Below, in pieces: positions 25,143 to 29,696 of a DNA stretch of 35,842 nt. Source of the DNA: Rubritepida sp. (GTDB taxonomy: Bacteria > Pseudomonadota > Alphaproteobacteria > Acetobacterales > Acetobacteraceae); the NCBI GenBank assembly GCA_028291455.1, contig JAQGHY010000208.1, positions 1 to 35,842 of the forward strand, in the 5' to 3' direction. A program made the position numbers and the translations under genes. Position 1 is the first letter of the stretch. The number at the start of each line of letters is the position of its first letter. The notes under the pieces were generated by a model. That model had not been told where the DNA came from. It saw only the letters and a list, made by a program, of their open reading frames with translations, and did not search any database.

Positions 25143-26030
25143 ATGCCCGTCCCGTTATCCAAGGCTTCGATCGCCATCGATTCCTCTGCCGACCGCGACC
25201 GCGGCGACGGCGTGCATGAGGTCGCCGCGGATATCGCCTACCTGCGACTTGCCATCGTCAACGTGGCCTTTCTCGGCCTCTCCGGGGCGGGCGACCGCGG
25301 CTGGGTTCTCGTCGATGCCGGCATCCCCGGAACCAAGGCCATGATCACCCGCGCCGCCGAGGCACGCTTCGGGGCCGGGGCGAGGCCTGCGGCGATCCTG
25401 CTCACGCATGGGCATTTCGACCATGTGGGCGTGCTGGAGAGTCTGGCGGAGGAATGGGATGCACCCGTCTTCGCCCACCCGCTGGAGCATCCCTACCTCA
25501 CCGGAACCGCCTCCTACCCACCGCCCGATCCCGCGGTGGGCGGTGGGTTGATGAGCGCGCTTTCACCACTCTTTCCCCGCAGCCCGATCGACCTCGGTCT
25601 GCGTCTGAACAGCCTCGAAGAGGACGGCTCCGTCCCCTTCCTGCCAGGCTGGCGCTGGCTTCCCACGCCGGGCCACAGCGTCGGGCACGTCTCCTTCTGG
25701 CGCGACGCGGACAAGGCGCTGCTATCGGGCGACGCCTTCATCACGACGCGGCAGGAATCCGCCTATGGGGCGATTTCCCAGGCACCGGAGATGCACGGCC
25801 CGCCGGCCTATTTCACGGTCGATTGGGACGCGTCGCGCGATTCCGTCCGCAGCCTCGCCGCCCTCGAGCCCGAACTGGTGGTGACGGGCCATGGCCGGGC
25901 CATGCGAGGGAGCGAGATGCGTGCCGCGCTGCACCTTCTCGCCCAGGATTTCGACAGCCTCGCGAGGCCCTCGCAAGGGGTCTACCTGGACCGGCCGGCG
26001 CGGGCGGCGGACGGGACCGCCTACCTCTGA
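25143..26030 (+). CDS. MBL-fold metallo-hydrolase
   Basis: 295 residues with AGGAG upstream of the ATG. The metal site of the metallo-beta-lactamase fold is complete: His89-x-His91-x-Asp93-His94 in THGHFDHVG, a third His in TPGHSVGHVSFW, the bridging Asp in LLSGDAFIT and the last His in VVTGHGRAM. The spacing is that of glyoxalase II-like and quinolinase-like hydrolases rather than true beta-lactamases. No signal peptide is seen, so it should be cytosolic. The order of motifs, with a 60-residue insert rich in Pro and Leu (residues 120-170), gives no specific substrate. It is the first gene of the accessory segment between the two aqpZ/NTF2 copies. The next frame is 111 bases downstream. Confidence 0.9.
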   Translation: MPVPLSKASIAIDSSADRDRGDGVHEVAADIAYLRLAIVNVAFLGLSGAGDRGWVLVDAGIPGTKAMITRAAEARFGAGARPAAILLTHGHFDHVGVLESLAEEWDAPVFAHPLEHPYLTGTASYPPPDPAVGGGLMSALSPLFPRSPIDLGLRLNSLEEDGSVPFLPGWRWLPTPGHSVGHVSFWRDADKALLSGDAFITTRQESAYGAISQAPEMHGPPAYFTVDWDASRDSVRSLAALEPELVVTGHGRAMRGSEMRAALHLLAQDFDSLARPSQGVYLDRPARAADGTAYL

Positions 26031-26141
26031 AGCGCAGGCCTCGCCTGCCGGGTTGAAGCAGGTGCTGGCCACCGCGCAGCAGCAGGTTTTCGCGCAAACC
26101 TCCGGCGCTTCCAGGCGTTCTCCGATCGGAAGGAGATTGCA

Positions 26142-26336
26142 ATGTCATCCAAAGCTCATCCACCTCCAGTACCGCCGGCCAATCGCTCGCCACAGGAGCG
26201 GGGGAAGCGTGGCCCCGGCGGGCCGGATCCTCGCTCCGACCACGGCAAGGCCAGCGAGCCCGGCCCGGATCGGGACAGCGGGACCGATGCGGTCGCGCCC
26301 AACACCCATCACCCCGGTTATCAGCAGGACCGATAA
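26142..26336 (+). CDS. Hydrophilin-like disordered protein 1 (64 aa)
   Basis: 64 residues behind an excellent AAGGAGA Shine-Dalgarno with a 7-base spacer, which argues for real translation. The protein has no Leu, Ile, Phe, Trp or Cys and a single Tyr, and is dominated by Pro, Gly, Asp, Ser and Arg, so it should be fully disordered. That composition resembles hydrophilins, the glycine-rich, very hydrophilic proteins induced by osmotic stress and drying. No family match is recognised, so this is a compositional description only. The second tiny gene starts 2 bases after its stop. Neighbours include a manganese catalase and a Crp/Fnr regulator. Confidence 0.65.
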   Translation: MSSKAHPPPVPPANRSPQERGKRGPGGPDPRSDHGKASEPGPDRDSGTDAVAPNTHHPGYQQDR

Positions 26337-26338
26337 GC

Positions 26339-26548
26339 ATGACCCAGCGGAACAAGGACCAGAAAAGCGTTCACTCCGGCGGCCCAGGTAGCAGCCATCA
26401 GGGCGGCAACCACGGCGAGACGCATCGGAGCGAAGGCGAGGTCAAACCCGGCGCCCCCACCAACGGCGAGCGCAGCCATGTCTCGGGCGGGGGCGGCGAG
26501 CGCGATTCCCACCATACGCACGATCCCAAACCAAGAGCTAGAGCGTGA
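26339..26548 (+). CDS. Hydrophilin-like, His/Gly-rich disordered protein 2 (69 aa)
   Basis: 69 residues starting 2 bases after the preceding stop, with AGGAC overlapping the end of gene 1 as a possible Shine-Dalgarno. Apart from the start Met it has no Leu, Ile, Phe, Trp, Tyr, Met or Cys. It is rich in Gly, Ser, Glu and Arg and has eight His, including HHTH near the end and the SVSGGGG-like SHVSGGGGER segment. It should be disordered; the histidines might bind metal, which is a guess. The pair with gene 1, same style and nearly same length, suggests a two-gene unit. No family is recognised. Confidence 0.6.
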   Translation: MTQRNKDQKSVHSGGPGSSHQGGNHGETHRSEGEVKPGAPTNGERSHVSGGGGERDSHHTHDPKPRARA

Positions 26549-26599
26549 TCGCCGCGGGCTGAATCAGCCGGAGGCGTGAATTACGCGTCAAAGAACAAC

Positions 26600-26631
26600 C
26601 CAGAGCTTTTCCCGCTCGCGAAAAACTCTGG
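26600..26631. promoter_or_regulatory. 12-bp inverted repeat in the leader of the alpha/beta hydrolase
   Basis: CCAGAGCTTTTC and GAAAAACTCTGG are complementary except at one position and are separated by 8 bases. The right arm ends 25 bases before the chosen ATG (26657). It could be an operator for a dimeric regulator or an mRNA hairpin. The lack of a T-run on the plus strand argues against a terminator for the small upstream genes. Confidence 0.5.
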
Positions 26632-26656
26632 ACCGACCGTCGGCGAAGGCAGTGGC

Positions 26657-27643
26657 ATGGCAAAACGCATCTGGATGATCGCGGCGGGCGCGCTCGGCGC
26701 CGCCGGCGCTCTCGGCGTCGCGAACGTGCTCGGCGCGCGGAGCGCGGAGCGCCGCTATCCGCCGGAGGGCCGCTTCCTGGAAATCGACGGCGTCCGGCTC
26801 CACTACACCGACGAGGGTCAAGGGCAGCCCATCGTCCTGCTGCACGGCAACGGCGCCATGGTCGAGGATTTCACCCTCAGCGGCCTGCCCGCAGCCCTGG
26901 CGCCCCGCTGCCGCGTGCTGGCCTTCGACCGGCCCGGCTTCGGCCACAGCACGCGGCCGCGCGATCGCCGCTGGACCGCCACGGCACAGGCGGCGCTGCT
27001 GCATGCCGCGCTGCGCGCCTTGGGCATCGAGCGCCCCGTCCTCGTCGGTCATTCCTGGGGGGCGTCGGTGGCGATTTCCTTCGCCCAGGAATATCCGGAC
27101 GATGCGGCGGCGATCGTCCTGATCTCCGGCTACTACACGCCGAAATGGCGGCCTGACCTGGTGATGGGATCCGTAGGTGCGCTCCCGGTCATCGGCCCCA
27201 TCCTGAACCACACGATTTTTCCGGTGCTGAACCGGCTGCTCGCGCCGCTGGCGCTGCGCCACCTCTTTGCGCCGAACGAGGTTCCTGCCTCCTTCAAGGC
27301 GGGGTTCCCGCTGGCGCTGGCGTTGCGGCCTTCGCAGCTTGCTGCCACCTCCATGGATACCGCAAATATGAACGAGGCCGCGGCGACCTCGCGCAAGCGT
27401 CTGGGGGACATCACGGTCCCCGTCGTCATCGTGGCGGGTTCGGCCGATGCGGTCGTGGACCCCGAAGGTCACTCCCTGGCGCTGCATCGGTTGCTGCCGG
27501 GCAGCGTGATGCGATCCGTCGCGGACACCGGCCACATGGTCCACCAGACGGCGACCGACGACGTCCTCGCGGCTATCGACACGGCGATCGCCGCGGGATC
27601 CGCCGCGCATCCGGGAGGGGACGAACAGCGGGCGGGTGCGTGA
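26657..27643 (+). CDS. Membrane-anchored alpha/beta hydrolase
   Basis: 328 residues from the ATG at 26657; the GTG at 26576 in the ORF track would add 27 polar residues and run through the inverted repeat, so it is less likely. The N terminus IWMIAAGALGAAGALGVANVLGA is a hydrophobic segment that could be an uncleaved anchor or signal. The hydrolase fold follows: HYTDEGQGQPIVLLHGNGAM with the oxyanion HGNG, FDRPGFGHSTRP, nucleophile elbow GHSWGAS, acid in VAGSADAVVDPEG and base His in TGHMVH. This is the classic epoxide hydrolase/haloperoxidase-like layout. Substrate unknown. It lies between the small disordered proteins and the manganese catalase, both suggestive of stress physiology. Confidence 0.88.
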   Translation: MAKRIWMIAAGALGAAGALGVANVLGARSAERRYPPEGRFLEIDGVRLHYTDEGQGQPIVLLHGNGAMVEDFTLSGLPAALAPRCRVLAFDRPGFGHSTRPRDRRWTATAQAALLHAALRALGIERPVLVGHSWGASVAISFAQEYPDDAAAIVLISGYYTPKWRPDLVMGSVGALPVIGPILNHTIFPVLNRLLAPLALRHLFAPNEVPASFKAGFPLALALRPSQLAATSMDTANMNEAAATSRKRLGDITVPVVIVAGSADAVVDPEGHSLALHRLLPGSVMRSVADTGHMVHQTATDDVLAAIDTAIAAGSAAHPGGDEQRAGA

Positions 27644-27738: not shown

Positions 27739-27807
27739 CCAGTTCTCGCAACTCGCGCTCCCCGCTCGCCGTTCCAGTCTCAGCTCGGCCAGAGGTCATG
27801 TACCTCG

Positions 27808-27841: not shown

Positions 27842-28714
27842 ATGTATTTTCTCGATAAGCGCCTTCAGTATCCGGTTCGGGTCGAAACGCCCGACCCTCT
27901 TTTCGCGCGCCAGCTCCAGCAGGCCATCGGTGGGGTCGAAGGCGAGATCCGCGTCTGCCTGCAGTACTTCTTCCAGGCATGGGGCGCCCGCGGTCCCGAC
28001 ACCAAGTACCGGGACATGCTCCTCCACACCGCCACCGAGGAAATCGGCCATATCGAGATGCTCGCGACCGCGGTGGCGATGAACCTCGAGGACGCGCCGC
28101 TGACCCTGCAGGAGAGCGCCGCCGAGGCTCACCCGGTGATCAACGCCGTCATGGGCGGCGAGCGGCCCCGGCACGTCGTGGAGGGGATGTTGCAGCAGCA
28201 CATGCTGTCCAGCGGCCTCGCGGCGATGCCGGTCAATTCGGACGGCATTCCCTTCGACTGCTCGCACGTCTACGCCAGCGGCAATCTCGCGGCCGACATG
28301 TATGCGAACGTCACCGCCGAGGCGACAGGCCGGACGCTCGCCGTGCGCCTCTACAACGCCGCCAAGGACCCCGGCATGAAGGACATGCTGGCCTTCCTCA
28401 TAGCGCGCGACACCATGCATCAGCAGCAATGGCTCGCAGCGATCGAGGAGTTGGGGGGCAAGGCCGCCCTGCCGATCCCCGACAGCTTCGATCAGTCGAT
28501 GGAGAATCGCGAGTTCAGCTACACCTACATGGCCAGCGGGATCGACGGCACGCCTCCTCCGGAGGGGCGCTTCACCTCGGGCCCGTCGCTCGATGGCAAG
28601 GGTCAGTTCAGCGTCATGCAGAACCAGCCGATGGGCCAGGTTCCCAACCTGGGGCCGGCGCGTGCGGGTTCGGGCGCGCAGGTGACGCAGATCCTGAAGA
28701 TGTCGTCGCTCTGA
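27842..28714 (+). CDS. Manganese catalase family protein
   Basis: 290 residues with an AGGAG ribosome site. The ferritin-like four-helix core and dimanganese ligands are visible: a Glu in GGVEGEIRVCLQYF (33 or 35), Glu67 and His70 in ATEEIGHIEML, Glu160 in VTAEATGRTLAVRLY, and His193 in ARDTMHQQQW. The start MYFLDKRLQYPVRVETPDPLFARQLQQAIGG is that of the family, and the C-terminal tail with PPPEGRFTSGPSLDGKGQF is typical of the proteobacterial and Bacillus spore-coat-like branch. The enzyme breaks down hydrogen peroxide without heme in the cytosol. Length is normal. It has its own leader and a strong terminator, and precedes a Crp/Fnr gene. Plant-associated and desiccation-prone alphaproteobacteria often carry it on accessory DNA. 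Confidence 0.95.
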   Translation: MYFLDKRLQYPVRVETPDPLFARQLQQAIGGVEGEIRVCLQYFFQAWGARGPDTKYRDMLLHTATEEIGHIEMLATAVAMNLEDAPLTLQESAAEAHPVINAVMGGERPRHVVEGMLQQHMLSSGLAAMPVNSDGIPFDCSHVYASGNLAADMYANVTAEATGRTLAVRLYNAAKDPGMKDMLAFLIARDTMHQQQWLAAIEELGGKAALPIPDSFDQSMENREFSYTYMASGIDGTPPPEGRFTSGPSLDGKGQFSVMQNQPMGQVPNLGPARAGSGAQVTQILKMSSL

Positions 28715-28946: not shown

Positions 28947-29696
28947 ATGTTGAACCCCGTTAGCCGCAAATTCCGCAATTTCGTTCGCTTCTCGGAGGCC
29001 GAGGAGGTCGAGCTCGAACACCTCGTCTCGGCGCGACGATTCGTGCGCGGTCCCCGGGTCGAACTCGGTCCCCGCGCCGCCCTGCCGGACGGCCTGCACG
29101 TCGTCCTCGAGGGCTGGGCCTGTCACTACAAGGTGCTGCCCAACGGGCGCCGGCAGATCACCGCGCTGTGCCTGCCGGGCGACTTCTGCATGGATCGTGC
29201 ATCGGTGCTCCGGCAGGTTTGCCACTCCGTCGGTACCCTGACGGCTGTCACCTTTGCCCAGCTCAGCCTGTCCGCAGTCGACGAGCTTTCGGCCAACTAC
29301 CCGCGTATTTCGACCGCCTTGGCCTGGCAATCCGAGGTCCAGGCAGCCGTGCAGCGGGAGTGGGTCGTCAATCTGGGACAGCGGGGCGCCACCGAACGAA
29401 TGGCGCACCTGCTTTGTGAAATCCATATGCGCCTTTGGATGGTGGATCTGGCCGAACACGGTTCCTGCGAAATGCCCCTCACGCAGGCCGACCTCGCGGA
29501 AACCATGGGTCTCTCCGCCGTGCATGTGAACCGGGTTCTGCAGGAACTCCGCAGTGCCGGGCTGATCGTCCTGCGAGGGCGTACCCTGACCATCCCTAAC
29601 CTGGATGCCCTACGCGAAATCGCCATGTTCGACCCCGGCTACCTGCATGCCGAACGCGAGGGCCGGCACCTTGATGCGAATGAATGGGCCGCCTGA
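28947..29696 (+). CDS. Crp/Fnr family transcriptional regulator
   Basis: 249 residues from the ATG at 28947, preceded by GGGAAGGGGA. The N-terminal cyclic-nucleotide-binding-like barrel is seen in residues 20-130 (VLEGWACHYKVLPNGRRQITALCLPGDFC is the usual GxxxxxxxxxGxxxxxxxxxPGD pattern). The dimer helix follows, then ERMAHLLCEIHMRL. The C-terminal winged helix-turn-helix reads TQADLAETMGLSAVHVNRVLQELRSAGLI, near residues 175-205. There is no N-terminal cysteine cluster of Fnr type and no obvious heme motif; this is a common orphan group in alphaproteobacteria that responds to unknown signals. It may control the adjacent catalase or small-protein genes, which is inference. It ends 4 bases before the stop of the convergent oxidoreductase gene. 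Confidence 0.93.
   Translation: MLNPVSRKFRNFVRFSEAEEVELEHLVSARRFVRGPRVELGPRAALPDGLHVVLEGWACHYKVLPNGRRQITALCLPGDFCMDRASVLRQVCHSVGTLTAVTFAQLSLSAVDELSANYPRISTALAWQSEVQAAVQREWVVNLGQRGATERMAHLLCEIHMRLWMVDLAEHGSCEMPLTQADLAETMGLSAVHVNRVLQELRSAGLIVLRGRTLTIPNLDALREIAMFDPGYLHAEREGRHLDANEWAA

Follow-up and report, generated by a model that had tools for sequence, protein, structure and literature searches.

Two small adjacent reading frames, here called ORF1 and ORF2, lie on a contig of Rubritepida sp. (JAQGHY010000208.1, analyzed over 35,842 nucleotides, hereafter the window) and raise the question of what role two proteins devoid of Leu, Ile, Phe, Trp and Cys might play. An initial annotation likened them to hydrophilins and tentatively joined them with a nearby Mn catalase and a Crp/Fnr protein into a module for protection against drying and oxidation. 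The frames of 64 and 69 codons, 2 bases apart, that it described match the coordinates exactly, the stop codon of ORF1 lying exactly 2 nt ahead of the ORF2 start, and the near-perfect Shine-Dalgarno sequence is indeed found a few nucleotides 5' of the ORF1 ATG, with comparable sites before most homologs. The features of the pair are as follows.

26094-26118, + strand: candidate EcfG-type promoter, degenerate, CAAAC-N17-GTT, with the AAC triplet of the -35 box and the GCGTT of the -10 box kept
26129-26136, + strand: Shine-Dalgarno sequence of ORF1, GGAAGGAG, read from the sequence
26142-26336, + strand: ORF1, 64 aa, ATG start, of the SKAHxPPVPPANR ... NTHHxGYQQDR family
26322-26333, + strand: last ORF1 codons, CAGCAGGACCGA, encoding QQDR, with the presumed ribosome site of ORF2
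26339-26548, + strand: ORF2, 69 aa, ATG start, His-rich, of the GGPGSSHQGGxHG ... SGGGGERDxHHTHDP family

Distribution and tandem arrangement of the two families

Neither ORF1 nor ORF2 matches any Pfam or NCBIfam profile at E values up to 1, and five homologs gave no Pfam match at E values up to 10; membership of a known family, the KGG proteins included, was rejected on these grounds. Relatives of ORF1 at 86, 80, 58 and 47% identity are present in congeneric and confamilial genomes, most of which have ORF2 next in line. Among 300 genomes of the host's family, ORF1 occurs in 51, ORF2 in 49 and both in 47, with the tandem arrangement in 38. A wider search covering about 85,000 species genomes gave 80 named loci, nearly all of them named as Alphaproteobacteria, in the genera Roseomonas, Belnapia, Roseococcus, Methylobacterium, Mesorhizobium, Chelativorans, Ensifer, Azospirillum, Devosia, Reyranella, Bradyrhizobium and Microvirga, among others. 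When samples of the class and the phylum were searched with profiles, every match lay within Alphaproteobacteria and matches were infrequent, which makes the pair widespread but patchy in occurrence.

The tandem order is conserved: by pattern search, ORF2 lies downstream of ORF1 in 58 of the 80 named loci, the gap being at most 4 nt in 43 and at most 30 nt in 55. Some genomes carry ORF1 without an adjoining ORF2, and each gene is also found without the other. Homologs on plasmids are labeled 'hypothetical protein' or left unannotated. Judged from their sequences, ORF1 and ORF2 are two unnamed families that have been kept together across Alphaproteobacteria.

Composition and predicted disorder

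A composition count bears out the absence of Leu, Ile, Phe, Trp and Cys from both proteins and the eight His residues described for the second, which also lacks Tyr. Such composition had been called rare, and among the 68 mechanically called ORFs of 55-85 aa within the window these two are the only ones free of all five residues; across the window and 80 related loci, 18 of 2475 ORFs are, family members counted in. Hydrophilins in the Garay-Arroyo definition, as quoted in PMC4190154, have more than 6% Gly and a GRAVY below -1, and both proteins fall well within these bounds (12.5% and -1.71 for ORF1, 18.8% and -1.73 for ORF2), as do 98.8% of ORF1 and 100% of ORF2 homologs for the two measures jointly; the same paper cautions that these measures alone are insufficient for hydrophilin status. 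By the charge-hydropathy criterion, the window proteins and all homologs class as disordered, and AlphaFold2 supplied with the family alignments returned zero secondary structure for either protein (pTM 0.16 for ORF1 and 0.14 for ORF2), so that both are intrinsically disordered by prediction. The suggested resemblance to hydrophilins is thus sustained in composition and in predicted disorder.

With hydrophilins such as yeast Hsp12 and Stf2, the pair shares small size, Gly content, hydropathy and, by prediction, disorder. Hydrophilins are stress-associated, and the corresponding link for the pair consists of the EcfG-type promoters across its families, described below. Unlike hydrophilins, to which they have no detectable sequence relation, ORF1 and ORF2 carry fixed end motifs and come as two families per operon, and protection is something that we infer for them.

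EcfG-type promoter sites upstream of ORF1

The proposed connection with stress is strengthened by a feature absent from the first reading, namely, promoters of the EcfG type that recur across the family. In 81 loci (the 80 and the window), with the -35 box placed 40-75 nt before the start codon, the strict form GGAAC-N17/18-GTT precedes ORF1 in 36, whereas random stretches taken from these loci predict 0.15; it also stands before 7 of 894 other ORFs preceded by a Shine-Dalgarno sequence. A relaxed form, in which one mismatch is permitted within the GG of the -35 box, is found in 59 of the 81 loci against 0.48 expected and before 19 of the 894 other ORFs, and is the weaker of the two counts because its pattern was chosen after looking at the non-matching loci. 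About a quarter of the loci lack even the relaxed site at the expected position. Members in further lineages have an EcfG-type site too, and in S. meliloti 1021 a perfect site stands upstream of the pair and another upstream of the gene that precedes it. Published EcfG boxes read GGAAC-N16-CGTT in R. etli (PMC3892343) and GGAAC-N17-20-GTT in Sphingomonas (PMC6599016), and in Sphingopyxis almost every -35 box keeps the AAC triplet, the two most frequent boxes being GGAAC and GCAAC (PMC7083833). Like genes of the PhyR-NepR-EcfG regulon, for example, the RpoE2 targets of S. meliloti, the pair has GGAAC-N17/18-GTT shortly before its start codon; unlike them, its regulation is deduced from sequence, and we did not find the pair described in open-access papers.

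The site of the window itself, GCAAAC...GGCGTT, has CAAAC rather than GGAAC as its -35 box and, taken alone, is not significant (p 0.17). It aligns with GCGAAC...GGCGTT (CGAAC-N17-GCGTT) in the closest relative, L108, and with GTGAAC...GGGTT (TGAAC-N17-GGGTT) in a second locus, L109; among the three, DNA farther 5' of the promoter block aligns poorly. The host genome has a gene with a PhyR sigma-like domain and, on L193 and L194, two ECF sigma genes, each followed by a NepR-like frame whose match falls slightly under the Pfam cut-off, and one of these sigma/NepR-like pairs adjoins PhyR. Taken together, the enrichment across the family, the published boxes, the aligned window site and the PhyR, EcfG and NepR genes make EcfG control likely for the family and plausible for the window's own copy.

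Because the conserved families stand mostly behind a promoter of a stress sigma factor, they probably represent an overlooked drying or stress-protection pair, and we favor, with moderate confidence, a small operon that encodes disordered hydrophilin-like protectants within the general stress response of Alphaproteobacteria. Under stress, PhyR releases EcfG from NepR. RNA polymerase carrying EcfG would then transcribe the pair, ORF2 would be translated from a ribosome site within the last ORF1 codons, and both products, soluble and permanently disordered, would accumulate in the cytoplasm, where they would protect macromolecules against drying and against osmotic or oxidative stress. More speculatively, the end motifs might also bind something specific, possibly a metal via the HHxH of ORF2.

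To our knowledge, the function of many genes controlled by the general stress response of Alphaproteobacteria has not been established. In the genetically tractable S. meliloti and Methylobacterium, so widespread a pair of very small proteins, linked as it is to this promoter, would permit a direct test of drying survival, and likewise of whether disordered stress proteins bear conserved, specific binding motifs. In the open-access literature, we found no paper combining hydrophilins, the general stress response and Alphaproteobacteria. Searched by locus tag, the open-access S. meliloti literature does not mention this locus and yields no paper for SMb20340; the SMb20335 sORF is described as a 34-aa frame inside another gene (PMC10117765). 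The literature covered was the main text of open-access papers, and the S. meliloti pair may already be listed anonymously among RpoE2-dependent genes, for example in the supplementary RpoE2 tables.

Conserved end motifs and their possible binding partners

Conservation in ORF1 peaks at PPVPPxNR and, at the C-terminus, at NTxHQGYQQDR, and in ORF2 at GGPG(S/A)(S/A)H and SGGGGERDxHHTHD. In both families, short near-invariant end motifs therefore flank variable linkers. Conservation of this kind exceeds the need of a purely compositional or bulk protectant and suggests a specific partner or ligand. A more specific formulation, which we put forward tentatively, is that ORF1 and ORF2 represent two undescribed families of disordered proteins, co-translated as part of the general stress response of Alphaproteobacteria, which would work jointly as a protectant or assembly in two parts, the fixed end motifs being recognized by a conserved target, and not as generic hydrophilins.

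Rather doubtful, by our estimate, is that ORF1 and ORF2 are specific adaptors instead of bulk protectants, that is, disordered linkers presenting short motifs (PPVPP and NTxHQGYQQDR in ORF1, GGPGSSH and SGGGGERDxHHTHD in ORF2) by which the proteins would attach, under stress, to one another or to a conserved partner in the cell. The invariance of the ends around variable linkers would suit such adaptors, as would the co-occurrence in 47 genomes when ORF1 is present in 51 and ORF2 in 49 of 300; the genomes in which ORF1 has no adjoining ORF2 argue against them, and no partner gene recurs beside the pair.

Less probable again is that ORF2 is a scavenger of Cu, Zn, Ni or Fe that limits metal-catalyzed oxidation, with ORF1 as a co-expressed helper. 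Proteins of the ORF2 family contain 6.7 His residues on average and at least 4, and the HH is nearly invariant, which would fit metal binding. However, ORF2 has no Cys, its His residues could serve solubility, and a recurrent metal transporter or metalloregulator was not seen beside the pair.

Translation of ORF2 and selection on both frames

In all close pairs, CAGGAYCG is kept in the tail of ORF1, which would provide a ribosome site shortly before ORF2, and from this we infer translational coupling of the two genes. The encoded QQDR persists almost without exception where ORF2 is missing or farther off, and so is constrained as protein too. Two small genes spaced 1-4 nt apart with coupled translation could also constitute a toxin-antitoxin system, but this is very unlikely for two proteins with neither a predicted fold nor a family match, each of which is found without the other and whose composition suits hydrophilins.

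Against L108, dN/dS is 0.16 for ORF1 and 0.11 for ORF2; compared with relatives more widely, the window pair gives about 0.07-0.18, and nearly all other pairs tested give values of roughly 0.2 or below. The check proposed at the outset, a search of relatives for conserved frames under purifying selection, thus found homologs in many genera with low dN/dS, and neither a loss of conservation nor frameshift-tolerant change, either of which was to count against the genes. On these patterns of substitution, ORF1 and ORF2 are genuine genes; although spurious frames are numerous in high-GC DNA, chance ORFs or part of a noncoding RNA are ruled out, to near certainty, by dN/dS and by the conservation of proteins, starts, stops and spacing, with synonymous-biased change across genera.

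Genomic neighborhood

The genes around the pair in the window are as follows.

25143-26030: MBL-fold neighbor
26576-27643: alpha/beta hydrolase, between the pair and the Mn catalase
27842-28714: Mn catalase (Pfam E 1.8e-77)
about 28947-29696: Crp/Fnr protein

The Mn catalase and the Crp/Fnr protein do lie near the pair, as had been pointed out, although the hydrolase intervenes before the catalase. The drying/oxidation module built on them was rejected because these neighbors are not conserved across the 80 loci: a full-length Mn catalase relative is near the pair in one (L150, about 5.2 kb off) and Crp relatives in two. Otherwise, neighbors are shared mainly inside single clades, and the pair acts as a transcription unit of its own. 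MBL-fold relatives are found near it in L109 and L161, and hydrolase relatives in L108 and L166. At 27748-27773 (+ strand), about 70 nt 5' of the start of the Mn catalase, an EcfG-like GCAAC-N18-CGTT raises the possibility that EcfG controls this gene independently of the pair; the window contains 13 relaxed matches in all, so this one could be due to chance.

Some neighbors in other genomes would fit a stress setting. In one relative, a desert-soil Pelagibacterium, the trehalose-synthesis genes treY and treZ (L190, 351-4312) adjoin the pair on a plasmid. In Acetobacteraceae bacterium H6797 (L010/L111), a KGG-repeat protein is encoded directly upstream of ORF1; proteins of this YciG/GsiB type are, like the pair, small, hydrophilic and stress-type, whereas ORF1 and ORF2 have no KGG repeats and no Pfam match. 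A third small conserved protein, NRDKxxHSxxRGxDxKxVQTEQxxDHAANR, is encoded beside the pair in four genera, upstream of ORF1 in L160, downstream in L161 and L167, and at 4779-4994 in L191; in L160, the gene for this third protein is itself preceded by a strict EcfG promoter, located 308 nt 5' of ORF1. Separately, an unnamed membrane-like gene is located just 5' of the pair in L189 (4434-4916) and in L192 (S. meliloti pSymB), with its own perfect EcfG-type promoter at pSymB 344737.
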